A DNA stretch of 64,000 nt, taken from positions 62,001-126,000 of the forward strand of contig OY282457.1 of NCBI GenBank assembly GCA_958296235.1. Reading direction: 5' to 3'. The notes under the pieces are model-generated. The model was not told the origin of the DNA. It was given only the letters and a program-made list of their open reading frames with translations, and made no database searches. Made by a program: the position numbers and the translations under genes. Positions 30,706-48,703 of this stretch are shown here, piece by piece (position 1 is the first letter of the stretch; each line of letters opens with the position of its first letter). The DNA comes from an uncultured Candidatus Binatia bacterium (GTDB lineage Bacteria > Desulfobacterota > Binatia > Bin18).

Positions 30706-31755
30706 ATGGGTTTACTATTCTTTGATGACAGCAAGCACGATAACCAAGGCTTCTCTCTTGGAGCATTCGTATATACCCAGAGAGACCCAAGTCCATACAT
30801 CAATTCAGCACTTCAAGACTGTGGATTGCGTCCTGGAATTGACGAGTTCAAATCGTCTGGATACATGAGTCGTAGTCCAGCTCAGGAAAAATTAAGGAGG
30901 GAACTGCGTAACATCATTTTCAATCAAGGTTGCCGCCTAGGCGTGGTCGTGGTGCCCTGTTCGTTGGAGCTAGGAGATGAGGCCATGCTCCTTCTTCAAA
31001 AGATGCTCAGTCATCCCAATCTTGACCGTGGGCAGCACGAAGTCTATTTCGACGAAGGTCTCTTCAAAACGGTGGATTGCGGACGGGATACCGCGAGTGC
31101 TCACGGCTTGCCTGAATGGCGCAATCTAAATTTAGAACAGGATTCGAGAAAGACTCCTGGCATTCAACTGGCTGACCTTGCAGCTCATACGTGCGCCGTT
31201 ATGCTTAAGGAATCGCTCGGACTTATCGACAAAACCGTAAAAGCCGGAGACAATTCAGGTTACGATCCTGATCTCGATATCGAAATCGGATTCGAGCTCT
31301 GGGCGAGCGTCCGTTATAATTTCCTCTCTGAGGAGCCACCGCATCCAGATGAATGGGTTGAAGGTGATCTTCAACCTACGGCCAATGTTCTGCCCTACGG
31401 CCTGCACGTTTCCTCCACTTGTAGAGAGAAATTGCGAGAAGCCGCGACAGGTCGGTTTGGTACAATGTACCTGGGCTGTGTATTCACTAGAAGAACAGAA
31501 CGATACGACACAAACAAAAAGGGCGCACCGCGGTGCGCCCCTCCAAGTTGCGATGAATGTGTGTGTCTTTTACTCCAACACCTCAGCAATCACGAGTTCG
31601 GTGATCTTCTCTTCATTATAGCCCAGAATATTCTCCAACACGTTCTGGTTCTCACGTCCCAGCGTCGGGGCTGCCGGGTTGATCTGGGCCGGGGTGCGGG
31701 AGAATTTGAAGCGGGTGCCCTCGACCGTGGTCTTGCCAAAGTCGGGGTGCTCTAA
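30706..31755 (+). CDS. DUF3800-like protein, C-terminus uncertain
   Basis: The start MGLLFFDDSKHDNQGF (ATG 30706) gives up to 349 residues. FFDDSKHDNQGFSLGAFVYT and DSRKTPGIQLADLAAHTCAV match the RNase H-like DUF3800 pattern (acidic start and Q-L-A-D). The frame does not stop at the end of the conserved part but runs through a minus-strand terminator (31521) and 186 bases into the next gene's antisense strand. The genuine C-terminus may lie near residue 270 if a stop was lost. DUF3800 genes are common in mobile and defence regions. Confidence 0.68.
   Translation: MGLLFFDDSKHDNQGFSLGAFVYTQRDPSPYINSALQDCGLRPGIDEFKSSGYMSRSPAQEKLRRELRNIIFNQGCRLGVVVVPCSLELGDEAMLLLQKMLSHPNLDRGQHEVYFDEGLFKTVDCGRDTASAHGLPEWRNLNLEQDSRKTPGIQLADLAAHTCAVMLKESLGLIDKTVKAGDNSGYDPDLDIEIGFELWASVRYNFLSEEPPHPDEWVEGDLQPTANVLPYGLHVSSTCREKLREAATGRFGTMYLGCVFTRRTERYDTNKKGAPRCAPPSCDECVCLLLQHLSNHEFGDLLFIIAQNILQHVLVLTSQRRGCRVDLGRGAGEFEAGALDRGLAKVGVL
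31516..31540 (-). terminator. Intrinsic terminator of the CoA-transferase pair
   Basis: GGGCGCACCGCGGTGCGCCC (31521-31540) is a perfect 20-nt palindrome, followed on the minus strand by five T (31520-31516). It lies 30 bases after the stop of the second CoA-transferase. Confidence 0.8.
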
Positions 31756-32811
31756 ATCAACGAAGTGCTCACGGTGTTGAAGCTGCTTGTCCTCGTACAG
31801 CTCGTTTATGGTTTCCACCGCGCTGGCCGGGACTCTTTTCGCCTGAAGTTGTTCTTCGGCGTCATAAGGACTGAGTTGGCCGCTCCATTCGTTAATTGCC
31901 TTATCGATCTCGTCCTGATGGGCCAGCCGGCCTTTGACGGTGGCAAGACGCTCGTCACTGCCGAGGTCCGGGCGGTTCATGGTCTCGCACAGTGAGCGCC
32001 ACTGGTCGTCAGTTTCCACGCCAATCGCCACCCAGCGATCCTCTCCTGCGGACTGATACACCCCGTGCGGGGCGAAGTTCATGTCCCGGTTGCCCATACG
32101 GGTCTGGGTCCGTCCGTTGACGGTTTGGTCTAAAAGAAACGGCGCCAGAAAATGAAGGGCGGCTTCGGCCTGCGCCAGGTCAATATGCTGGCCTTTGCCA
32201 GTCTGGTGCTTGTGTTCCAATGCCGCCAGCACGGCCGCGGCGTTATACCACGGTGCAATATAGTCGGTGTAGGCGCCGAACGGCCCCGCCGGCTCGCGGT
32301 CGGGCCAGCCGGTGGGATCGAAAAAGCCTGAGACGGCAGCCGCTAAGTTCCCAAACCCGGCGAAGTGAGAATGCGGCCCAGTCTGACCCATTAAGCAGGT
32401 GCTGAGCATGATGATGTCAGGCTTGATTTTTGTGAGTGACTCGTAGTCAAAGCCCCACTCCCGCATGGCTTTGGGAGAAAAGGACTCGGTCACTACGTCT
32501 GCCCACCGCACCAAGTCAAAAATGATGTCGCGCGACTCCGGTTTTGACAGATTCAGGGTCATCGGCAGTTTGCCCGTGTTCATATTATTGAACAAGCCGG
32601 AATTATTCGGGCCGGGCTGCTTGTTTTGAAAGGGCCCGACCATGCGCACCGCGTCAAAGCGTGTGGTCGATTCAACCCGTACAACGGTCGCTCCGTAGTC
32701 GGCCAAAATACGCGTCGAGCCAGGGCCGGCCATAGCCCACATGAAATCGAGCACTTTGACCCCAGCCAGGGCTTGATTGTTTTCACTGCCAGTCTGTTGT
32801 CCCTCTGCCAT
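31570..32811 (-). CDS. CaiB/BaiF CoA-transferase, second of a pair
   Basis: The protein has 413 residues. VKVLDFMWAMAGPGSTRILADYGATVVRVE is the CoA-binding start, and the region normally holding the catalytic aspartate reads GKGQHIDLAQAEAALHF, with Glu in that place. Many CaiB-family members have this Q-A-E-A form. The gene is 26 bases downstream of another of equal length, so a heteromeric transferase like BbsEF or SmtAB is possible. The acid substrate is unknown. Confidence 0.88.
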   Translation of the reverse strand: MAEGQQTGSENNQALAGVKVLDFMWAMAGPGSTRILADYGATVVRVESTTRFDAVRMVGPFQNKQPGPNNSGLFNNMNTGKLPMTLNLSKPESRDIIFDLVRWADVVTESFSPKAMREWGFDYESLTKIKPDIIMLSTCLMGQTGPHSHFAGFGNLAAAVSGFFDPTGWPDREPAGPFGAYTDYIAPWYNAAAVLAALEHKHQTGKGQHIDLAQAEAALHFLAPFLLDQTVNGRTQTRMGNRDMNFAPHGVYQSAGEDRWVAIGVETDDQWRSLCETMNRPDLGSDERLATVKGRLAHQDEIDKAINEWSGQLSPYDAEEQLQAKRVPASAVETINELYEDKQLQHREHFVDLEHPDFGKTTVEGTRFKFSRTPAQINPAAPTLGRENQNVLENILGYNEEKITELVIAEVLE

Positions 32812-32837
32812 AATTACCCCTCCTGATTGAGGCTCGG

Positions 32838-34079
32838 TTAGATTATTCCCTTGTTCTGCAACTCTGCTAACGCTTGGGCATCAAGGCCGAGTTCGCCATA
32901 GACCTCAGCATTGTGCTCGCCAATCTTTGGCGGTCGGCGCTTATAGGCAATCGGCTGCTCGCTGAACTTGGCAAACGGACCGGGATAGGCGAACGCTTTG
33001 CCCATCTCCTCATGGTCAACCGCGGTCCAGTATTGACGCGACTCCAACTGCTCGCTCTCGACGACCTCGTCAATCGTAGTGACCGGGGCGACCAGCAGGC
33101 CACGGTCCAGGGCGTTCTGGAACAGCTCTTCTTTGGTTTTGGTCTTGGTGAAATCTTCAACGATCAGTTTGAGGCGTTCATAGTCTTCAAGCGTTTTCGG
33201 ATCGCCACCAAACAGGAGGCCGCCCATCTCAACCCAGTCCATCTGTTGGACGTCTTTGTCACAAAACCCCTCTTCATATATCCAGTCCATCAGACGCTTG
33301 GTGAAATGGGCAAACGCCGAGCCAAACAGGTAGGCAATCGAAACATGACCGTCTTTCGCTGGCCAGAGCAGGCGGATTTCCAACGGCCCCATTTTTGCCC
33401 CACCGGCCATGCGGCGGGTTTCCGCATCGTTGAGCGGAGCCGAGAGTATGGTCGATTGGGTTGCCTGGGCCGCCGCCTGCTGGGCGGAAATATCAATATG
33501 CTGGCCCTGGTTCGAACGGTGGGATTCGTGCAGGGCAATCAGCGCGGCCGGTGCCGCTGCGGCGCTGGCGTGCAGATAGCCCTGGGGAACGCTCAGGCGG
33601 ACCGGCGGGCGGTCTTCGTCCCCGGTAATGACGAGCGGTCCGCTGCTGGCCAGAATCACCAGGTCGCTGTCCGCATAACTGGCCTTTGGGCCGTCTTGTC
33701 CAAAGGGGGTAATCGAGACATAAATCAACCCTGGATTGTCTGCCGCTAACTCGGCATAGCTCAGGCCGTATTGGGCCAGGGTGCCGGGGTTGTCCGACTC
33801 GATCAGAAATTTTGTGTCGCGCGCCAGGCGTCGAAGAAGGTCCTGGCCTTCGGACCGCGTGATATCGAGCGTGACCCCCCGTTTATTACGGTTATAGGCC
33901 CACCAGTAGAGCGAGAGCTCCGCATCTTCCTGATCCTGATAGAAGGGTCCGAGCTTGCGAGCCGGGGAACCTCCGGGAGGCTCGATTTTAATTACATCAG
34001 CGCCAAGGTCGGCCAGGATTTGGCCACACAGCAATCCGCGTTCTGTTGTCAGGTCAAGAACTCGATAAGGGTTGAGCAT
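32838..34079 (-). CDS. CaiB/BaiF CoA-transferase, first of a pair
   Basis: The protein has 413 residues. YRVLDLTTERGLLCGQILADLGADVIKIEPP and NRNKRGVTLDITRSEGQDLL are family signatures. The usual catalytic aspartate region reads NQGQHIDISAQQAAAQAT, with Gln, so this subunit may not form the acyl-enzyme intermediate. The pair with the following gene could be an active/structural heterodimer. Confidence 0.87.
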   Translation of the reverse strand: MLNPYRVLDLTTERGLLCGQILADLGADVIKIEPPGGSPARKLGPFYQDQEDAELSLYWWAYNRNKRGVTLDITRSEGQDLLRRLARDTKFLIESDNPGTLAQYGLSYAELAADNPGLIYVSITPFGQDGPKASYADSDLVILASSGPLVITGDEDRPPVRLSVPQGYLHASAAAAPAALIALHESHRSNQGQHIDISAQQAAAQATQSTILSAPLNDAETRRMAGGAKMGPLEIRLLWPAKDGHVSIAYLFGSAFAHFTKRLMDWIYEEGFCDKDVQQMDWVEMGGLLFGGDPKTLEDYERLKLIVEDFTKTKTKEELFQNALDRGLLVAPVTTIDEVVESEQLESRQYWTAVDHEEMGKAFAYPGPFAKFSEQPIAYKRRPPKIGEHNAEVYGELGLDAQALAELQNKGII

Positions 34080-34237
34080 TCGGCGACTCCCACACTAGCA
34101 ATGGCAGTGATTTTTTATCCTCCGCATGAGGTCTCCCCCATAGCTCCCTTGGCGAGAACAGGCAAGCCCCGATTTGATGCCGGCCGGATAATTCGGGTGG
34201 GCTCTGCTCAGGCGATATGGTATTGACGGAGTGCATC

Positions 34238-34384
34238 ATGATCTGTCCGCGCTGCCGAACAAAAATGAAAGTAGAGGCGCACCGGCCTCATAAACACGAA
34301 AAATGGCGCTGCCCGCAGTGTGGCAAAATCCGTATGAAACCCGCGTCATACCGTCGGCATAAACGACGCGATCAAGCTGAATAG
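34238..34384 (+). CDS. Small zinc-ribbon protein (48 aa)
   Basis: The ATG at 34238 gives MICPRCRTKMKVEAHRP, then WRCPQCGKIRMKP and a basic tail SYRRHKRRDQAE. Two C-x2-C knuckles 25 residues apart form a zinc ribbon, and the lysine/arginine-rich tail fits nucleic-acid or ribosome binding. It lies alone between two minus-strand genes. Confidence 0.65.
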   Translation: MICPRCRTKMKVEAHRPHKHEKWRCPQCGKIRMKPASYRRHKRRDQAE

Positions 34385-34419
34385 AGCTGGGAGCGCGGAC
34401 ATCTTGCCGGCATCCGGCT

Positions 34420-34881
34420 TCAGGGAGAAGGACGCTCCTCGACTGTCTCCTTGCGGCTGGCAACATAGGCGGCCATGAGTCCTGGCAGGTCAATAGGCGA
34501 CTCTGTTTCTCTGAGCTTGCCGCCGGGTGGGATAATTTTATCCGACCCGCCAAGTGAGATCAGGACATAGGGGCCGCCGAGCAAACCCTTGGTCTGAACG
34601 GATGCGATCGCGTCTTCTTGAATTTCAATATCACGGTCTATGGTGAAGCGGACTCTCGCCCGCGCGCCCGTGAGCTGGACGGTATCAACCCGGCCTACGC
34701 GGACACCGGCGACCTCGACAGGAGTGCCCGGTCCCAGGCCGGTGGCACTTTCAAAGTCCGCATAGATGGTATACCCCCAGGCGTTATAGAGCACGGTTTC
34801 TCCGAGTGACGAGAACAGATAGAACGCACTTGCGGTTCCAAGAATCAGGAAACCAACGACGCTGAGGCCGATCCGTTGCAT
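34420..34881 (-). CDS. MlaD-type (MCE domain) lipid-transport protein
   Basis: The start MQRIGLSVVGFLILG (ATG 34881) gives 153 residues: one N-terminal membrane anchor, then one MCE domain (YTIYADFESATGLGPGTPVEVAGVRVGRVD ... TKGLLGGPYVLISLGG). MlaD binds phospholipid in the periplasm as the substrate part of MlaFEDB. The usual mlaE/mlaF neighbours are absent, so this is an orphan copy or the rest lies elsewhere. Confidence 0.86.
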   Translation of the reverse strand: MQRIGLSVVGFLILGTASAFYLFSSLGETVLYNAWGYTIYADFESATGLGPGTPVEVAGVRVGRVDTVQLTGARARVRFTIDRDIEIQEDAIASVQTKGLLGGPYVLISLGGSDKIIPPGGKLRETESPIDLPGLMAAYVASRKETVEERPSP

Positions 34882-34966
34882 GGCCTGACAGCCTAGCAGA
34901 CCACCCCTTATCTCCCAAGACCCTCCACCCATTCTCATGGCAGATACGCTGGCTCTCCAAGGGAAT

Positions 34967-35875
34967 ATGAAAAACGCAGGCGAGAAGCGCTTTGGGCAGC
35001 TTCTTTGTTTTGCGCTTCTTTTCTGTAGCTTTTTATTCGGTCATCTCCATAATGTCCGGGCCGATACTACAGCCCTGGTCGCCCAGGGGCAGTATGTCTT
35101 TGCCCTAGCCGGCGGATGTGGCTGCCATACCGCGGATGCGGGACCCGCCAACGCCGGCGGGCGGCCGATTGAAACCCCCTATGGGCGATTTTACGGGACG
35201 AATATTACGCCTGACCCAGTTCACGGCATTGGGACCTGGACGGACCGGGAAATCATCGACGCGATCCGGTTGGGGGTGAAACCTGATGGGACGGTCATGA
35301 GTCCGGTCATGCCATACCCGGCCCTGAGCGGCATGACGGATGCAGATGCCACGGCGCTGGTTGCTTTCCTGCGCAGCCGTGCGCCCGTCGCGCAGGAAAA
35401 CCTCCCCCACGAGGTCGGCATTCCATTTTCTGGACTGGCCATGCGTGTCTGGCGCTGGCTGTTTTTTGAACCGGTTACAACTCATGCCACAGCTTGGACG
35501 GACCCCATTGCCCGAGGCCGCTACATCAGCGAACATCTCGCCCATTGCCAAGAGTGCCATACGCCGCGCACCGTGTTTGGCACTCTTGACCGGACGCGCG
35601 ATCTAGCCGGGAATCCAGCTGGCATTGACGGCGAGGTCGCGCCCAATATTACCCCGGATGACGAGACGGGTATCGGACAGTGGAGTGAGGGAGATATCGT
35701 TTCCCTGCTGCGCACCGGCTTTCTCCCGAATTTTGATAACGTCCAAGGGCTGATGGCGGTAGTGATTGATGGGGTCCCCGGAGGCGGATACAAAGACATG
35801 ACGGATGAAGATGCCTACGCTGTTGCCGCATATCTGAAATCGGTTGCTCCAAGGGAGCAGGCAGAAGCGGAATAG
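34967..35875 (+). CDS. Diheme cytochrome c
   Basis: The start MKNAGEKRFGQLLCF (ATG 34967) gives 302 residues with a signal peptide. Two cytochrome c domains follow the pattern of alcohol-dehydrogenase-type or sorbitol-dehydrogenase cytochromes (GTNITPDPVHGIGTWTDREI and APNITPDDETGIGQWSEGDI). The second heme site is canonical, CQECH; the first reads GGCGCHT, that is C-x-C-H. It should accept electrons in the periplasm; a dehydrogenase partner is not seen. Confidence 0.85.
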   Translation: MKNAGEKRFGQLLCFALLFCSFLFGHLHNVRADTTALVAQGQYVFALAGGCGCHTADAGPANAGGRPIETPYGRFYGTNITPDPVHGIGTWTDREIIDAIRLGVKPDGTVMSPVMPYPALSGMTDADATALVAFLRSRAPVAQENLPHEVGIPFSGLAMRVWRWLFFEPVTTHATAWTDPIARGRYISEHLAHCQECHTPRTVFGTLDRTRDLAGNPAGIDGEVAPNITPDDETGIGQWSEGDIVSLLRTGFLPNFDNVQGLMAVVIDGVPGGGYKDMTDEDAYAVAAYLKSVAPREQAEAE

Positions 35876-35906
35876 CGTGGAGCTTGCGTAAAAAGGAGGT
35901 AGTGCA

Positions 35907-36404
35907 ATGAAAGGGATAGTGATCCGTGTGGTTCGTGGGGTTTTGATCAGCGCCAGTGTGATGGCAGGCGGGCTGCATACTATGGGTGGGCTGAGTTTCG
36001 GGCATGAAAACCACCCCACCCAGATGCCGGACCCGCAGCAGACGGTGGCGTTTCGCACCTATCTGATGGAGAATATCGGGGCCAACGCCAAGGAGATGAA
36101 GGGCAAGATCGATGCCGGTAAGCTCTCAGAGGCAAAAATGAATGCGGCTGCCATAGCCCTTCATTCCACCCGCATCGCAGCGCTCTTTCCTGAGGGCAGC
36201 ACGTCGGACGCCTCTCGGGCAAAAGAAGAAATCTGGCAAACCTGGGAGGCTTTTCTCGCCTCAGCCACAGTGCTGAGTACGGAAGCGAACGCGCTGACCG
36301 TGGCGGCGGGAGAAAATAATGCCACCGCAGTCAAAGAACATATGCAAAAGATGTTCGGGACGTGTAAGGGCTGTCACGACCAGTTTCGCAAGCCGGAGGA
36401 ATAA
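35907..36404 (+). CDS. Cytochrome c'/c556-like protein
   Basis: AAAAAGGAGG precedes ATG 35907; the protein is 165 residues with a signal peptide. Four amphipathic helices lead to the C-terminal heme motif CKGCHDQFRKPEE, the layout of the cytochrome c'/c556 four-helix bundle. It lies 32 bases behind the diheme cytochrome and is probably co-expressed. Function could be electron transfer or gas/radical handling. Confidence 0.86.
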   Translation: MKGIVIRVVRGVLISASVMAGGLHTMGGLSFGHENHPTQMPDPQQTVAFRTYLMENIGANAKEMKGKIDAGKLSEAKMNAAAIALHSTRIAALFPEGSTSDASRAKEEIWQTWEAFLASATVLSTEANALTVAAGENNATAVKEHMQKMFGTCKGCHDQFRKPEE

Positions 36405-36484: not shown

Positions 36485-37774
36485 GTGTCCGGTGCTATTG
36501 GGTTCCAGGCGCTGACAAGCCGTAATGCCGTGCTGAGCAGCGCAGAAAATTTTATCCTGTACCTGCTCATGGAGACCAAGCCGCAGGGTGGGGGCGTGCG
36601 CCTGCCGCTCAATCTTGGCATTGTCCTTGACCGTAGCGGTTCGATGTATGACGAACAGCGGCTTGATTACGTCATTGAGGCCATCAAATATCTGATCGAT
36701 AATCTTGGCCCGGATGACAAGGCCGCGGTGGTCGCGTTTGCCGACCGGGCGGAAGTTGCGGCAACGGCAGACCAGGTCGCGACTGAGGCCGCCAGGGTGA
36801 AACGGACGATTGACGATCTCGATCTTCTGGAAATTGGGGGCGGAACACAAATGGCGCTGGGCATGGAAGCGGCGCTTGCCGAGGTGGAGAAGTATTATTC
36901 ACCGAACCGCCTGAACCGGCTGCTGCTCCTGACCGACGGTCAGACGTATGAGGAGCGCAAATGTCTGGAACTCGCCCGCCAACACCGGGCGCGTATTTCG
37001 TGCAGTACGCTCGGGGTGGGGATCGAGTTCAATGAAAAATTGCTAATGGAAATGGCCGAGGAGAGTGGCGCCAATTATCACTTGATCGATACCCCGACCT
37101 CCATTCCGAATATTTTCTCCAGTGAACTCCAGGGACTGCGGAATGTCGCCCTGACCAACGCGCGTATTGAGATGCAACTCAGCGCGGGAGTGCAGGTGAA
37201 AGAAGCCTTTCGCGCCAGTCCTCAGATTTACCCCATAAAAGAGATTACGCCCGACGCCAACCGGACGCTTTCCCTGCCGTTGGGAGATATTGAAGCTGGA
37301 ACGCCAAGCTCAGCCTTAGCCGTACTCGTCTTGCCGCCCCGCCGACCCGGCCGGGTACGGTTGGCGCGGGCTGAGCTGTCTTACGATACGCCCGAGGCAA
37401 AGAACCAGCGCGAAAGCGTGGACATTGTGGTGAATTATACGCTTGAGCGTTCGGATATTGGCCGGGCAAACGGCTATGTGATGAATCTGGTCGATCAAGT
37501 CAGTGTCGCCAAGATTCAGATGCAGGCTGAGGCGGCTATGGCTGCCGGCAACACGGATAAAGCCACGCGGCTGTTGGGTAATGCCATAGCCGGCACGCAA
37601 CGTCTGGGGAATACGAAAGCAACCCAAGCGCTGGAGGGGCTCCAGAGTGAGTTGAAGAAGACCCAGAGTCTTGCGACCGGGGCTGCCAAGACCCAGCTGC
37701 TCAGCGCTCAGGCAACCCTCCGAAAAACGCAGCAGCTTGATCCTGAAAGCGTCAAGGATGCGCTCCGGGATTAA
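36485..37774 (+). CDS. Cytosolic von Willebrand factor A domain protein
   Basis: AAAGGAG six bases before GTG 36485 sets the start (429 residues). LNLGIVLDRSGSMYDE is a full MIDAS (D-x-S-x-S) and GGGTQMALGM and LLLTDGQTYEE supply the remaining metal residues. There is no signal peptide or membrane helix. The C-terminal third is beta-rich and then a helical Gln/Ala/Thr region (LQSELKKTQSLATGAAK). It opens the kinase/phosphatase/FHA cluster and may be a scaffold or substrate binder. Confidence 0.85.
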   Translation: MSGAIGFQALTSRNAVLSSAENFILYLLMETKPQGGGVRLPLNLGIVLDRSGSMYDEQRLDYVIEAIKYLIDNLGPDDKAAVVAFADRAEVAATADQVATEAARVKRTIDDLDLLEIGGGTQMALGMEAALAEVEKYYSPNRLNRLLLLTDGQTYEERKCLELARQHRARISCSTLGVGIEFNEKLLMEMAEESGANYHLIDTPTSIPNIFSSELQGLRNVALTNARIEMQLSAGVQVKEAFRASPQIYPIKEITPDANRTLSLPLGDIEAGTPSSALAVLVLPPRRPGRVRLARAELSYDTPEAKNQRESVDIVVNYTLERSDIGRANGYVMNLVDQVSVAKIQMQAEAAMAAGNTDKATRLLGNAIAGTQRLGNTKATQALEGLQSELKKTQSLATGAAKTQLLSAQATLRKTQQLDPESVKDALRD

Positions 37775-38525: not shown

Positions 38526-40232
38526 ATGGCTTCTGCGCCGCTGATGACCGAACAGAGAGACCTTGAGGAGCGCTGTGTTTGTGTCGAGTGCGGACAGGCC
38601 AATAGCATCGGCGAAACTTTTTGCGCCGCCTGTGGCGTAGCGCTTGAAGAAGCAGGGGAGAGGGAGTCGGCCGCCCCTCTCGAACCGTTGCCCATCGGCA
38701 CCGTTCTGGCTGATACTTATCGTCTGACCACACTCCTAGCGACTGGACAGGAAAATCGTTACCGGGCGGTTCGTCAGACTGACGAAGACCGGCCCTACCT
38801 CATAGCGGAACGGGCGAGCGACCAGACCGCTGCCCATCCGGGTGGCGCGTTTCGGTTGTTCGAGCAGCTTGCCGAGATTCATCATCCGGCCCTGATCCTC
38901 CCCCAAGAACGTTTTGAACGTGACGGCCGAGTCTATCTCATTACACCGAGTCAGTCCGGTCTCCCACTGAGTCAGCGTATTGGCCGGACATCGGAGCGGG
39001 AGGCGGCCGGCTGGGGGGTCCAGTTATGTCAGGCCGTGGATGTTTTGCACCGGCATGGACTCTTATGTGTCGAACTGCCCCCGGAAAATATCCTGCTCGA
39101 CAAGACGGGCCGGCTGCGCCTCATTCAATTCGACGCGATCCGTCTCAAGGACACAGTTGAGGAGAGTCCCGTGCTGACAGACGGCTATGCCGCGCCCGAG
39201 GCATACAAGGCCCAGGTATTAAATGAAGCCGCAGATGTGTTTGCGCTCGGCGCCTGTCTGTATGCCGTTCTGGTGGGGCGGCGTTTGCCCGTTGAGGGCT
39301 GGGCGGTTCAGCCTGAGCCACCTGTATTCTATCCTGAGAAAGTTCTGACTCCCGAGTGTGAGCGCATTTTAAGCAGGGCGTTGGTCCTTGAGAGCACCGA
39401 ACGCTATGCGGACTTGGAAGCGCTGAAACATGATTGGCTTGCGCTGAGCCAGTCTACGTACATCCGTTCGGCCTGGCAGACCGATGTCGGACAGGTGCGC
39501 GACCATAATGAAGATGCCGTTCTGGTCAAAGAGGTCGGGCAGGGCAGTATAGCCGGTGATGATTTTCGGGGGCTGTATATTGTGTCAGACGGGATGGGTG
39601 GAGCCGAAGCCGGTGAGGTCGCGAGCCAGCTCGCCATTCAGACGGTCGCGCGCCAGGTCGAAGCAGCCTGGGCTGAGAGTGAGGCAAAAGAGGAAGGGGA
39701 CGCAGCTGCCTGGGAGATCTGTTTGCGTGAGGCGGTTGCGGCGGCCAATGCCCGGGTGGTCCAATACGGAAAAGACCATCCCGAAGCGGCCGGCCTGGGG
39801 GCTACGATCGTTGCCGCGTTGATCCAGGCGGGACAACTGGCGCTGGCCTGGGTCGGGGACAGTCGGGTCTATCTGCTGGAAAACGGAGTGTTGCGCCAGC
39901 TCTCGCACGATCATTCCCTGGTTGCCCGGCTGGTCGAAATCGGCCAACTGACGGAAGAAGAGGCACTGACTCACGAGCACCGCAACGTCCTGATTCGGTC
40001 TTTGGGCAGCAAGGAAAACGTCAAGGTTGATACGCTCTCGCGGCCGCTGAAGCGCGGCGTCCGCCTCCTCCTGTGCAGCGATGGGCTGACCAGCCATGTG
40101 CTTGATCCGGCGATCGCCGATATTATGAGTCGCCACCGGACTCCGCGCGAGGCCGCCTTGGAACTGACTGTCGCGGCCAATACCGCCGGCGGCAGCGATA
40201 ATACCTCGGTGGTGGTTGTCTTTCACGAGTAG
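38526..40232 (+). CDS. Zinc ribbon-pseudokinase-PP2C phosphatase fusion
   Basis: The protein has 568 residues in three parts. Residues 17-38 form a zinc ribbon (CVECGQANSIGETFCAACG). Residues 55-305 are kinase-like, but the VAIK Lys is Ala (YLIAERAS), HRDLKPEN reads CVELPPENILL and DFG reads QFD, so it cannot transfer phosphate. From about 320 a PP2C domain has DHNEDAV, VSDGMGG, WVGDSRVYLL, CSDGLT and GSDNTSVV, all metal ligands intact. It should remove phosphate from Ser/Thr, with the dead kinase as sensor or adaptor. It ends 13 bases before the active kinase gene. Confidence 0.92.
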   Translation: MASAPLMTEQRDLEERCVCVECGQANSIGETFCAACGVALEEAGERESAAPLEPLPIGTVLADTYRLTTLLATGQENRYRAVRQTDEDRPYLIAERASDQTAAHPGGAFRLFEQLAEIHHPALILPQERFERDGRVYLITPSQSGLPLSQRIGRTSEREAAGWGVQLCQAVDVLHRHGLLCVELPPENILLDKTGRLRLIQFDAIRLKDTVEESPVLTDGYAAPEAYKAQVLNEAADVFALGACLYAVLVGRRLPVEGWAVQPEPPVFYPEKVLTPECERILSRALVLESTERYADLEALKHDWLALSQSTYIRSAWQTDVGQVRDHNEDAVLVKEVGQGSIAGDDFRGLYIVSDGMGGAEAGEVASQLAIQTVARQVEAAWAESEAKEEGDAAAWEICLREAVAAANARVVQYGKDHPEAAGLGATIVAALIQAGQLALAWVGDSRVYLLENGVLRQLSHDHSLVARLVEIGQLTEEEALTHEHRNVLIRSLGSKENVKVDTLSRPLKRGVRLLLCSDGLTSHVLDPAIADIMSRHRTPREAALELTVAANTAGGSDNTSVVVVFHE

Positions 40233-45168: not shown

Positions 45169-47211
45169 CTAGCGATACAACTCCTCGTGTTTGACCGTGT
45201 GATCCGGCAGACGAATACGCGGGTAGAGTGAGGGCAGGCCGTTGCGGCCGAGGAGGAGGAAGTCAACCGGCACGAGTGGCATGGGGACTTCGAGGCCGAC
45301 ATAGCTGCTGAACTGATCTCTGCCAAATGCCAGGCGGGTACCGAGGATGTCTTTGGGCAGCGTCCCCCGGACATCGAACCCTTCTCCCAGACTTCCGGTG
45401 AGATGGGGAAGAACCCGCCAGCCGTCTTCGTCGTTTTTTTCAAACTGACTCTTCAGGGTGATATCTGCGGGTTCCGCCCCTTGAACCAGTTTGGCAATTT
45501 CCCGGTCCCCACGATAGCGGGCGTCTTCATAGCCCTTTTCGCGGAACTTGCGCCAGAACTGCTGCCACGACGCGGTGGGCACCCCATATACTTTGGGGCG
45601 AGGGCCGGTGTCGCTCTCCAACAGCAGAGTAATATCGCCATGTGGGGAGAGGATGATGCCGTCGTCCGTGAGTTCAACGTTCCGCCAGTTGCCATCATAC
45701 AGTTCTCTTTTGAGTCCCAGACCCTGAGCGCCAAACAGGTCCGGGTTGTCGCGCAGGAACATTTTGCTGAGCTGTAAGCCTTGGTTTTCAGGCCGACTGA
45801 GCTGTTGAAACTCTTTGGCCGCTTCTTTGGCCGCCTCAGTCTTGGGATAGTTCTCCAGCAGGCGACGCAGGTAGGCCTGCTTGTCCGTTTGATGCGAACT
45901 GGCTTTGGCTTGTTCAAGCAGGGCTTCTGCCGCGTTTTCCTGGAGCTTGGGAATCTCTTCTTCCATGCCAGCCAGCGCGTAATACTCAATGGATTTCTCA
46001 ATACGGCCTTCCTTGGCATAGGCTTTGGCGAGGATGGGATAGATTTCTGGAGCGCGTTCCTCCGGGGGGGTCTGCTGCACGTATTTTTCGCCCTCGGTAA
46101 TAATTTTTTCTTGAGAGATGGCTCGTCCGGTCATGACGTGCCAGAGCTTTCCCAAGGTCTGGAGCATGGTCAGCCCACCAAAGGTTGCCGCGCCGACCAA
46201 CCCCTCGGTGCCGAGTTGGAGGCCGGCCACAACAATATTGTCTTTGACAAAACCACTCCCCGGCAGCATATAGGTCAAGGTTTCTTTGCTGTGCTCCCAC
46301 TCTGCCTGTTTCACGCCGGCAAGCGGGTCTTGGGGGGCCTCCGGGTCGTGCTGGGTGAGGGCGTCATAGTGTTGCAGGCGGGACTCGACCTGCCGGACCC
46401 CGGCCTTGGCCTTTTCAGCGTTTTCGTCAACCAGCAGGGCGAGCTGATAATGGAAATTGGCCTGCCAATAGTCTTCTGCAGAGAATGCCTGCTCAGCCCG
46501 GGCTAACTCCGCCTTGACAAGGGCTTTTTTTCGTTTCGTATCCAGGGCTTCCATTTTGGCCTGGACTTCTGGAGCCCGCGGGTCATGCGGGGCTTGTTCG
46601 AGGAAACGCCGATACAGGGCCAGGGCTTTTCGTTCTCGGGGCCCTGGGCCTGAGCGCTGGCCAGCCGAAGAGACAATGCCTTGCGCGGCGTATGGGCTCG
46701 GACTGGCGGGAGCGCCAAGAAACAGCCGGGCCACGTCAAATGTCGAGAGCGCCCAATTGAATAGCCGGGCCACTCGGTGCCGTTTTTCCGAGGCGTAGAG
46801 CTGGTCTGCCTGGGCGAGCAGCTCATCCGGCGTCGCGTTCAGTTCCATAAGCGGCAGCTCCTCCTGCCCATCCTGCTCTATTGACCGGTACAGCAGGGCA
46901 TACACCAGGGGGGTGACGCCGGTTGCCTCCTCTCCCTGCGCTTGGCGGTGCGTGTCCTGTTGCGCCAGTTGAATGATCCGGCCGCGTAATGCTGACGGGT
47001 CTTGCAGATAGCCATCAATAATCGCGTCGGCAACGTGTCCGCCGACCTCATCCGGAAAATATCGCTCTGGAGGCAGCGGGGGCACAAAGGGATTATAGGC
47101 AGGCAAAAATTCCGTCAGCCGCTGGGCTAAGGGATCGGCGAAATCCCGAGCGTGCAGGGGTGCCGCGCACACGAGCTGGCAGCACAGGAACAGAGGGATG
47201 AGATACCACAT
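45169..47211 (-). CDS. Exported TPR-like protein of unknown function
   Basis: The protein has 680 residues with a signal peptide (LIPLFLCCQLVCA-APLH). Helical repeats include ALALYRRFLEQAPHDPRAPEVQ, YWQANFHYQLALLVDENAEKA and YPILAKAYAKEGRIEKSIEYYAL. A hydrophobic stretch near 330-370 (LQLGTEGLVGAATFGGLTML) may touch the membrane. The last 150 residues are a beta-rich domain. It is convergent with the VWA/FHA gene and follows the lipoprotein gene by 21 bases. No family is recognised. Confidence 0.75.
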   Translation of the reverse strand: MWYLIPLFLCCQLVCAAPLHARDFADPLAQRLTEFLPAYNPFVPPLPPERYFPDEVGGHVADAIIDGYLQDPSALRGRIIQLAQQDTHRQAQGEEATGVTPLVYALLYRSIEQDGQEELPLMELNATPDELLAQADQLYASEKRHRVARLFNWALSTFDVARLFLGAPASPSPYAAQGIVSSAGQRSGPGPRERKALALYRRFLEQAPHDPRAPEVQAKMEALDTKRKKALVKAELARAEQAFSAEDYWQANFHYQLALLVDENAEKAKAGVRQVESRLQHYDALTQHDPEAPQDPLAGVKQAEWEHSKETLTYMLPGSGFVKDNIVVAGLQLGTEGLVGAATFGGLTMLQTLGKLWHVMTGRAISQEKIITEGEKYVQQTPPEERAPEIYPILAKAYAKEGRIEKSIEYYALAGMEEEIPKLQENAAEALLEQAKASSHQTDKQAYLRRLLENYPKTEAAKEAAKEFQQLSRPENQGLQLSKMFLRDNPDLFGAQGLGLKRELYDGNWRNVELTDDGIILSPHGDITLLLESDTGPRPKVYGVPTASWQQFWRKFREKGYEDARYRGDREIAKLVQGAEPADITLKSQFEKNDEDGWRVLPHLTGSLGEGFDVRGTLPKDILGTRLAFGRDQFSSYVGLEVPMPLVPVDFLLLGRNGLPSLYPRIRLPDHTVKHEELYR

Positions 47212-47232: not shown

Positions 47233-48486
47233 TTAGCGGCCTAAACGTCCAACCTTGGCCATATAGGCTTCAAGCGCTTCGAGTTTGCCCTTGGCTTCAA
47301 GTTTTTCCATAATGCCGTCCTGTTGCGCAACCGCGGCGTAATGCTGGAGCGCTGCTCGTCCGAGGGCTTCAAAGATGTCCGCATCAAAACGTAAACTTTC
47401 CGGATCGTTCTGGGCCGTATATTCATGGGCGAGGGTGACGTAGAAATCACCTAACTCCAGCCGATACCGATAGCGGTTTTTGCTCTCCCGGTGTTTATCA
47501 AGCAACTGTTGATAGGCCAGGATAACGCTCTCGTTGCCATCCTCGATGCGGTAGCGGTTGAGGATAAAGAAAGCGACTTTCGCCCGCTCCAGCCGCTCTT
47601 CTTCTTCCTGTGCCAGGGAAGCATAGGGCGTGTTGTCATACTGCTGAGCGAGGTCCCGCCATTGTTGCGCCTGTTCGTCCAGCGCCTGCATATACTCCAC
47701 CGCGGTGGTTGCCGTCGGTATCTGTTGGGCGAGCGACTGAAAGGCGGTGAGCGCTTCGACTGCTTGCCCTGCCTGTTGTTTGAGTCGGCTTTTACCCTGG
47801 GCGACGCGTTGGTACTCGGCCAAGGCCCGTTCATAGGCGTGCAGCCCTTCATACGCCCGACCCCGAGTGAAGGCGATAATGGCGGGATAGGCGCCGGGAT
47901 GCTTGGTTTCATAATCGTTGATGCGGGTGAGTGTGGCCTTATGCACATTAGCTCCGGTCACATCTTTAGGAAGAGGAAAGCGGTAGGTGTCTTTTGTCGC
48001 CACGCGCTGAAACTCGGCGACAACCTTGAGGAGGTCCTGCTCGGTCCGGTACTGCGCACTGCCGTTTGGACCTGAATCGTCGGCAGACAGACCCGGTACC
48101 CAGGTGAGCCAGCCCGAGGATGCTCCTGCTTGGGCTGGACCAAGCGCCGGCAGGGGCGGCAGGGGCTCTTCCGGCTGGGCCGGCGGCAGTTCGGGCGGAG
48201 CGGCCTGGGCCGGTGGAGGAGACGGAGGGATGAGGCCCGTTGCATCGACGCGGGCTAAAAACTCCCACGCCAATTCTGCCTCTGGATCGTCTGCTTCTGC
48301 TGTTTTTTCCTGTGGTGCAGGCGGCAGGTCTGAGGGAACGGCAGCTTGTACGGGCTCATCATTGATAAGCGGGGGAGGGCGCTTCGCCCTGCAGCCGGCG
48401 ATGAGCAGGCCGGCGCCGACCACGCAAAGCCAGAAAATCAGGCTGACAGAAAATGCTCTGGTCGTGTCAGGATAGCGACGTAACAT
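47233..48486 (-). CDS. Lipoprotein with TPR-like helices
   Basis: The start MLRRYPDTTRAFSVSLIF (ATG 48486) gives 417 residues. GAGLLIAGC is a lipobox, so Cys about 32 should be acylated. A Pro/Ala-rich linker (residues 45-125) leads to helical repeats (EGLHAYERALAEYQRVAQGKSRL, YNRYRIEDG-type pairs). It is upstream of the exported TPR-like gene and probably in the same operon. Confidence 0.78.
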   Translation of the reverse strand: MLRRYPDTTRAFSVSLIFWLCVVGAGLLIAGCRAKRPPPLINDEPVQAAVPSDLPPAPQEKTAEADDPEAELAWEFLARVDATGLIPPSPPPAQAAPPELPPAQPEEPLPPLPALGPAQAGASSGWLTWVPGLSADDSGPNGSAQYRTEQDLLKVVAEFQRVATKDTYRFPLPKDVTGANVHKATLTRINDYETKHPGAYPAIIAFTRGRAYEGLHAYERALAEYQRVAQGKSRLKQQAGQAVEALTAFQSLAQQIPTATTAVEYMQALDEQAQQWRDLAQQYDNTPYASLAQEEEERLERAKVAFFILNRYRIEDGNESVILAYQQLLDKHRESKNRYRYRLELGDFYVTLAHEYTAQNDPESLRFDADIFEALGRAALQHYAAVAQQDGIMEKLEAKGKLEALEAYMAKVGRLGR

Positions 48487-48703
48487 AGCTCTATGAAGTA
48501 TAGCCGGCCGCAGCCGTTCCATCCGTTCGGATGTCGGCTGACTGCCCACAGACTCGTTACCAGCTTAAAGTGGGAAGCACGGCGAGTCAAAGGCGGATAG
48601 TCAAGAACCTGGAAGCGACGAGTACAGGGCAGGCCGGAGAAATTGCGGTTGTCTGGAGCAAATGATACAGACATGCGGTGACATACTGACGAGGGGGAAT
48701 CGC

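Follow-up and report, generated by a model that had tools for sequence, protein, structure and literature searches.

A predicted pseudokinase–PP2C fusion in a conserved kinase, vWA and FHA gene cluster of the Binatia

In the TerY-P triad of Anantharaman et al. 2012 (via eLife 13:RP94800, PMC11090510), a vWA protein and a PP2C phosphatase are combined with a serine/threonine kinase whose C-terminus bears a zinc ribbon. The locus considered here, situated in a stretch of 64,000 nucleotides of Candidatus Binatia DNA (the window), is similar in that genes for a vWA protein, a PP2C and a Ser/Thr kinase are adjacent, and zinc ribbons are present in the set. However, the PP2C protein carries a predicted pseudokinase domain, FHA proteins and membrane segments have been added, the zinc ribbons reside on the PP2C and FHA proteins and not at the C-terminus of the kinase, and no link to restriction genes is seen. 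The C-terminal part of the kinase is formed by one transmembrane (TM) helix (residues 314–335, by hydropathy) followed by an extracytoplasmic region, unlike the zinc ribbon or OB fold of TerY-P. As far as the domains can be read from the sequences, the vWA–PP2C–kinase core resembles the TerY-P triad, yet a feature that defines the triad is missing, namely the zinc ribbon at the C-terminus of the kinase.

Bacterial fusions of PP2C and kinase domains, in Pseudomonas and others, have been known since 2005 (PMC1262709, PMC12088040). They combine the same two domains on one chain but in the opposite order, the PP2C coming first and the kinase being considered potentially active; in the present protein the kinase part precedes the PP2C and has lost its catalytic residues. 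In Mycobacterium, PknB phosphorylates the pseudokinase region of MviN (the ActPs3 family), which thereby recruits FhaA (PMC12599244). The present case is similar in that a live kinase, an FHA reader and a pseudokinase occur together, and a likely phospho-motif is found inside the pseudokinase in f9, one of two families with the fusion (the other, f1, is that of the window). Unlike it, the MviN pseudokinase belongs to a transmembrane protein of peptidoglycan synthesis and has no fused phosphatase. In a 2025 review of bacterial pseudokinases the term PP2C is absent, phosphatase occurs once, in a reference title, and the sections on ActPs3, GLW, CP1, DYD and DLHK contain no such architecture. Within the open-access literature searched, we encountered no described pseudokinase family with this PP2C architecture. 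A function is known for only a small number of bacterial pseudokinases. Here an apparently dead kinase shares its chain with a phosphatase, an enzyme of the opposite function, in the vicinity of a live kinase and FHA readers.

The fusion gene lies among six consecutive genes, in the order vWA, zinc-ribbon FHA, fusion, TM kinase, multi-TM FHA, vWA–TM–FHA (Table 1). The vWA-TerF-like profile scores 22.6 bits on the vWA protein, against a cut-off of 29.4. The zinc-ribbon FHA protein has the canonical phosphothreonine-binding residues (GR, SRKHA and NGT). In the multi-TM protein SVANLHA stands in place of SRxHA, and since the Ser-Arg pair is missing, this FHA domain may not bind phosphothreonine. 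The orthologs of the latter protein that were read mostly lack the pair too, one f9 copy having an Arg nearby. The gene following the fusion had been described as encoding a real kinase; its product retains VAIK, YRD and DFG.

Table 1. Genes of the cluster and domains of the fusion protein in the window.
Feature	Position	Strand	Basis or details
vWA protein, 429 aa, MIDAS DxSxS intact	36485..37774	+	Pfam VWA 2.6e-16
Zinc ribbon + FHA protein, 219 aa	37807..38466	+	Pfam FHA 2e-14, DZR weak
Zinc ribbon – predicted pseudokinase – PP2C phosphatase protein	38526..40232	+	568 aa, ATG start
Zinc ribbon, residues 19–37 (CxxC...CxxC)	38580..38636	+	Pfam Zn_Ribbon_1 weak
Predicted pseudokinase domain, residues ~58–308	38697..39449	+	ENRY76-79, A94, E95-R96, E183, Q201
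PP2C domain, residues ~313–568	39462..40229	+	all metal ligands present
Predicted active Ser/Thr kinase, 791 aa	40246..42621	+	Pkinase 8e-30
Multi-TM protein with C-terminal FHA, 296 aa	42691..43581	+	Pfam FHA 2.3e-8
Signal/TM – vWA – TM – FHA protein, 533 aa	43532..45133	+	VWA 4e-11, FHA 8e-15, TM 27–52 and 376–398

The genes that precede the cluster, at 31570–36404, encode two class III CoA-transferases and two cytochromes c, including one cytochrome c', and are probably unrelated. Downstream of it, on the minus strand, are two large ORFs (45169–47211 and 47233–48549) with no Pfam match at 1e-3. A role in anti-phage defence was considered and rejected, as the PADLOC matches were kinase models and one PP2C model, with no vWA or FHA protein matched.

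The preliminary description had presented the fusion as a kinase-like domain joined to a PP2C phosphatase with all its metal ligands, and both points hold. The two domains are encoded by a single ORF matching Pfam Pkinase and PP2C, and every metal or phosphate residue of the latter (R325, D330, D355-G356, D445, D519 and D558) is present, being invariant or nearly so in the orthologs. The PP2C half is recognised by Pfam PP2C_2 (7e-15) and PP2C (1e-13), and its score with the Stp1_PP2C_phos equivalog (the Stp1/IreP PP2C, NCBIfam NF033484), 230.4 bits, is just above the cut-off of 230. Judging by the ligands and the curated profile, this half is predicted to be a PP2C (PPM) phosphatase of the Stp1/IreP type. 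We know of no description of Stp1, PstP or IreP with an N-terminal pseudokinase. The serine/threonine phosphatase family PRK14559 (NF011149) was rejected as an assignment: the score is 119 bits at a cut-off of 374, and the match covers the C-terminal PP2C only (profile 368–629), leaving the N-terminal part unmatched. Among 14 control genomes this profile exceeds its cut-off in Synechococcus elongatus only. The four cysteines of the zinc ribbon (C19, C22, C33, C36) are invariant in the ortholog alignment. The fusion has no TM segment by hydropathy, and its pseudokinase and PP2C domains are separated by a linker of only about 5–8 residues.

Pfam Pkinase matches residues 113–305 of the fusion (E 7e-20), and the kinase-like part matches solved kinase structures at 5e-15. 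When a profile of seven orthologs is compared to PDB, StkP, PknB and PknA are matched across the whole domain (profile 1–251, E 6.6e-17). Comparison of the Binatia pseudokinase profile with active kinases by hhalign yields 99.9 % (E 8e-33) over columns 54–305, the N-lobe included. The predicted kinase homology spans both lobes of the Binatia domain, and the Pfam, PDB-profile and hhalign matches, as sequence evidence, contradict the alternative of a fold other than that of a kinase.

The catalytic positions were read by alignment to the active kinases from the same operons. In the window protein, the HRD and DFG motifs are replaced by C181-V182-E183 and Q201-F202-D203, respectively, and A94 occupies the place of the VAIK Lys. 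The VAIK Lys, the HRD Asp and the DFG Asp, whose loss had been noted earlier, are indeed absent, with A94, E183 and Q201 in their positions. A fourth loss, that of the alpha-C Glu (L111), had been overlooked. The Asn of the catalytic loop is retained (N188). The VAIK Lys, the alpha-C Glu and the DFG Asp are absent in all 34 f1 and f9 sequences, one of which has a gap at the Lys, whereas the HRD Asp has been lost in f1 only, in eight of nine sequences, and all f9 orthologs retain this Asp. The f9 pattern (n = 25) is K to R, alpha-C Glu lost, HRD to [LV]ND, N to S, and DFG to GLD. Judged by these positions, the pseudokinase of the window's genus is very unlikely to use ATP in the conventional manner. 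A non-canonical transfer of phosphate or another group by this domain, as in SelO and SidJ, would be compatible with the retained Asn188 and, in f9, with the Asp at the HRD position, but the three residues gone from every sequence and the loss of the HRD Asp in f1 make it highly improbable.

The remodelled pocket is itself conserved, with new residues where the catalytic ones have been lost: ENRY replaces the Gly-rich loop in 33 of 34 sequences, [RA]ER is found at beta-3 in 32, and APE-x-Y[KR] and FYP are present in all 34. This conservation, together with the short linker, would suit a sensor, in which the altered pocket binds a nucleotide or another small molecule and switches the PP2C, similar to the N-terminal regulatory domains of phosphatases of the SpoIIE/RsbU type. 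The DYD pseudokinases provide a possible analogy. They are membrane kinases of Actinobacteria and Firmicutes, and their AlphaFold3 models feature ATP with an Arg-Asp salt bridge (PMC12599244). The f9 members share with them R for K, the missing alpha-C Glu and an Asp as the last residue of the DFG motif. However, the combinations are different (QFD with A94 in the window, GLD with Arg in f9), TM segments are absent, and a PP2C is fused. Since the window's genus has Ala in place of the Arg and has lost both the HRD and DFG Asp, we regard the sensor role as rather unlikely.

Close orthologs of the fusion come from Binatia/Binatota metagenome-assembled genomes. Counted at E <= 1e-32, 50 of the 148 class genomes contain the fusion, 11 of them belonging to f1 and 39 to f9; the next matches, at E 1e-19 and above, are ordinary kinases. 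In the trees, the pseudokinases of f1 and f9 form one clade (support 99/100), as do the PP2C domains of the Binatia fusions (support 100/98). The pseudokinase clade has a long stem, 4.1, and may or may not derive from the operon's own kinase. One ortholog from the same genus is truncated or frame-shifted, with an ORF of 410 aa and the remainder in another frame.

Between species of the window's genus, omega is 0.13–0.19 for the pseudokinase and 0.10–0.12 for the PP2C. The pseudokinase domain is under purifying selection. Chance or decay is excluded by the approximately 50 orthologs with the same architecture in combination with these dN/dS values. Thus the selection test contradicts, for the Binatia, the notion that the domain is a decaying remnant of a former bifunctional kinase/phosphatase whose kinase half is no longer needed. 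The progressively stronger decay of the kinase-like region in Chloroflexia and Deinococcus could be read in its favour, but the low omega, the conserved new motifs and the full length in two families leave it hardly any credibility.

The vWA gene of the operon and the fusion tend to occur together. Both are present in 47 genomes, the fusion alone in three, vWA alone in one, and neither in 97 (n = 148), that is, they co-occur in 47 of the 51 genomes having either; the four exceptions are mostly fragmented assemblies. The gene order in f9 is vWA, ZnR-FHA, kinase-FHA, pseudokinase–PP2C, TM kinase, TM-FHA. The additional f9 gene, a kinase with a C-terminal FHA between ZnR-FHA and the fusion, has a similar counterpart in Gloeothece.

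Wherever a Binatia locus was read far enough, the fusion has a live kinase next to it. This, and the full bilobal domain retained by the Binatia sequences, would be consistent with direct docking, the pseudokinase forming a heterodimer with the neighbouring kinase and the phosphatase acting on the activation loop of the latter. MviN and other bacterial Ser/Thr kinases dimerise back to back (PMC12599244), and the contact could be of this PknB-type/MviN kind. Yet the second kinase gene directly upstream of the f9 fusion makes the partner ambiguous. Moreover, many known constraints on back-to-back dimers fall into the N-lobe, and in the Chloroflexia relatives considered below active kinases match only the C-lobe part, with no recognisable N-lobe; hence the model of dimerisation through the N-lobe is not universal. 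Genomic adjacency of the kinase and the fusion is no proof of contact. We retain direct docking as a tentative explanation, held with less than even confidence.

Short motifs with threonine and a hydrophobic residue at the third position after it recur in the proteins of the cluster. The vWA tail (residues 371–419) contains five TQxL motifs, at T371, T380, T393, T403 and T415, while 0.17 are expected by shuffling (P ~5e-5). They are identical and in the same places in all f1 orthologs, and in the f9 tails all five sites are retained, with TTLL at one of them. Against the background of 2700 ORFs of the loci compared, at least four such motifs within 60 residues are found in 26 vWA copies only. 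The vWA tails of Cyanobacteria and Deinococcus feature repeats of K-T-x-x-[LIM]. The live kinase has a juxtamembrane T287-Q-I-L, and T-x-x-L is invariant in 14 aligned kinases. In f9, AKTx[ED]L occurs in a variable insert of 24 out of 25 pseudokinases, and AKTxDL in the linker of the kinase-FHA proteins (three of three read); the f1 pseudokinases lack the insert motif.

At pThr+3, FHA domains often have a preference for certain residues, some of which are hydrophobic. This preference makes the T-x-x-L motifs candidates for phosphorylation by the kinase and for binding of FHA domains. Their recurrence across the vWA tail, the kinase and the f9 pseudokinases as apparent lookalikes of FHA-docking sites is new here, and they provide concrete candidate sites.

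We consider it fairly probable that the pseudokinase anchors or regulates the PP2C as the eraser of a membrane-linked kinase–vWA–FHA phosphothreonine module. The live kinase would phosphorylate T-x-x-L motifs, five in the vWA tail and one beside its own membrane helix, the FHA proteins would read the marks, the vWA tail would act as an adaptor, and the PP2C of the fusion would remove the marks. The kinase-like domain of the phosphatase would no longer phosphorylate, being retained as a kinase-shaped surface that anchors the phosphatase to the complex; it could also relay a conformational change to the core of the PP2C, and since only few residues separate the domains, the pseudokinase may switch the PP2C. 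From sequence comparison we infer both the docking and the regulation. The contact might be made with the vWA tail, with the FHA proteins or with the live kinase, which is only one of the conceivable partners. Lineages may use different docking surfaces, as f1 lacks the AKTx[ED]L insert and the Chloroflexia lack a recognisable N-lobe. The preliminary description suggested that the dead kinase steers the phosphatase by docking to the live kinase or its substrates. The conserved unit with a live kinase and the co-occurrence with vWA fit docking or steering, and in this general form the suggestion is plausible; on the other hand, one of the cited losses, that of the HRD Asp, is specific to f1, and dimerisation via the N-lobe does not extend to all relatives. 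Such a non-catalytic role can be tested directly, as the domain may be removed from the phosphatase.

Similar gene sets are found beyond the Binatia. On plasmids of the cyanobacteria Tolypothrix, Trichormus, Nostoc and Gloeothece, genes for vWA, FHA and a PP2C protein of 530–620 aa follow each other as in the window, in most cases with a kinase gene after them; in Trichormus there is no kinase downstream within the stretch available, which ends at the start of the record. Two Deinococcus records have the order vWA, kinase, FHA, PP2C fusion. In the Chloroflexia, about 60 of 150 genomes yield a PP2C match extending through the N-terminal region, mostly in frames of 530–690 aa. The relatives from Deinococcus and from cyanobacterial plasmids represent culturable systems. 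Gammaproteobacterial matches spanning 109–564 were dismissed, as they are separate neighbouring kinase and PP2C genes and not fusions.

In the N-terminal halves examined of the PP2C proteins from outside the Binatia, Pfam finds no kinase above the cut-off. In profile comparison, the f9 pseudokinase profile matches these regions at 97 % (Deinococcus), 98 % (Chloroflexi) and 94 % (Cyanobacteria), with the vWA control at 0.6 % or less. The match of the cyanobacterial region to the f1 profile alone is weaker, 38 %, and the same region, although matching the Binatia pseudokinases, gives 2 % with active kinases. The comparison points to degenerate kinase domains, missed by profile libraries, within some PP2C proteins of Chloroflexi, Cyanobacteria and Deinococcus.

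The PP2C tree features three clades of fusions (Binatia; Chloroflexi; Cyanobacteria with Deinococcus) with stand-alone PP2Cs between them. The starred branches require three or more label changes, the deep branches being weak. The deep PP2C branches do not unite the three clades, and with their weak support the fusions may have had a single origin followed by losses or have arisen by convergence. For the same reason a mechanism shared across these phyla is no more than a possibility. It is conceivable, although we would not count on it, that pseudokinase–PP2C fusions are an ancient class of regulated erasers common to the vWA/FHA/kinase modules of Binatota, Chloroflexota, Cyanobacteriota and Deinococcota and recruited to FHA-bound T-x-x-L phospho-motifs. 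If true, one complex would contain the writer, the reader and the eraser, and the phosphatase would be run by a catalytically dead domain of kinase shape, decayed in some lineages to a degree at which Pfam misses it.

At many loci of the Chloroflexia a second, stand-alone PP2C adjoins the fused one, the two belonging to different clades. In the Anaerolineae genome fen_1063, several adjacent paralogs of a zinc-ribbon kinase, in frames of 500–670 aa, surround a zinc-ribbon PP2C protein.
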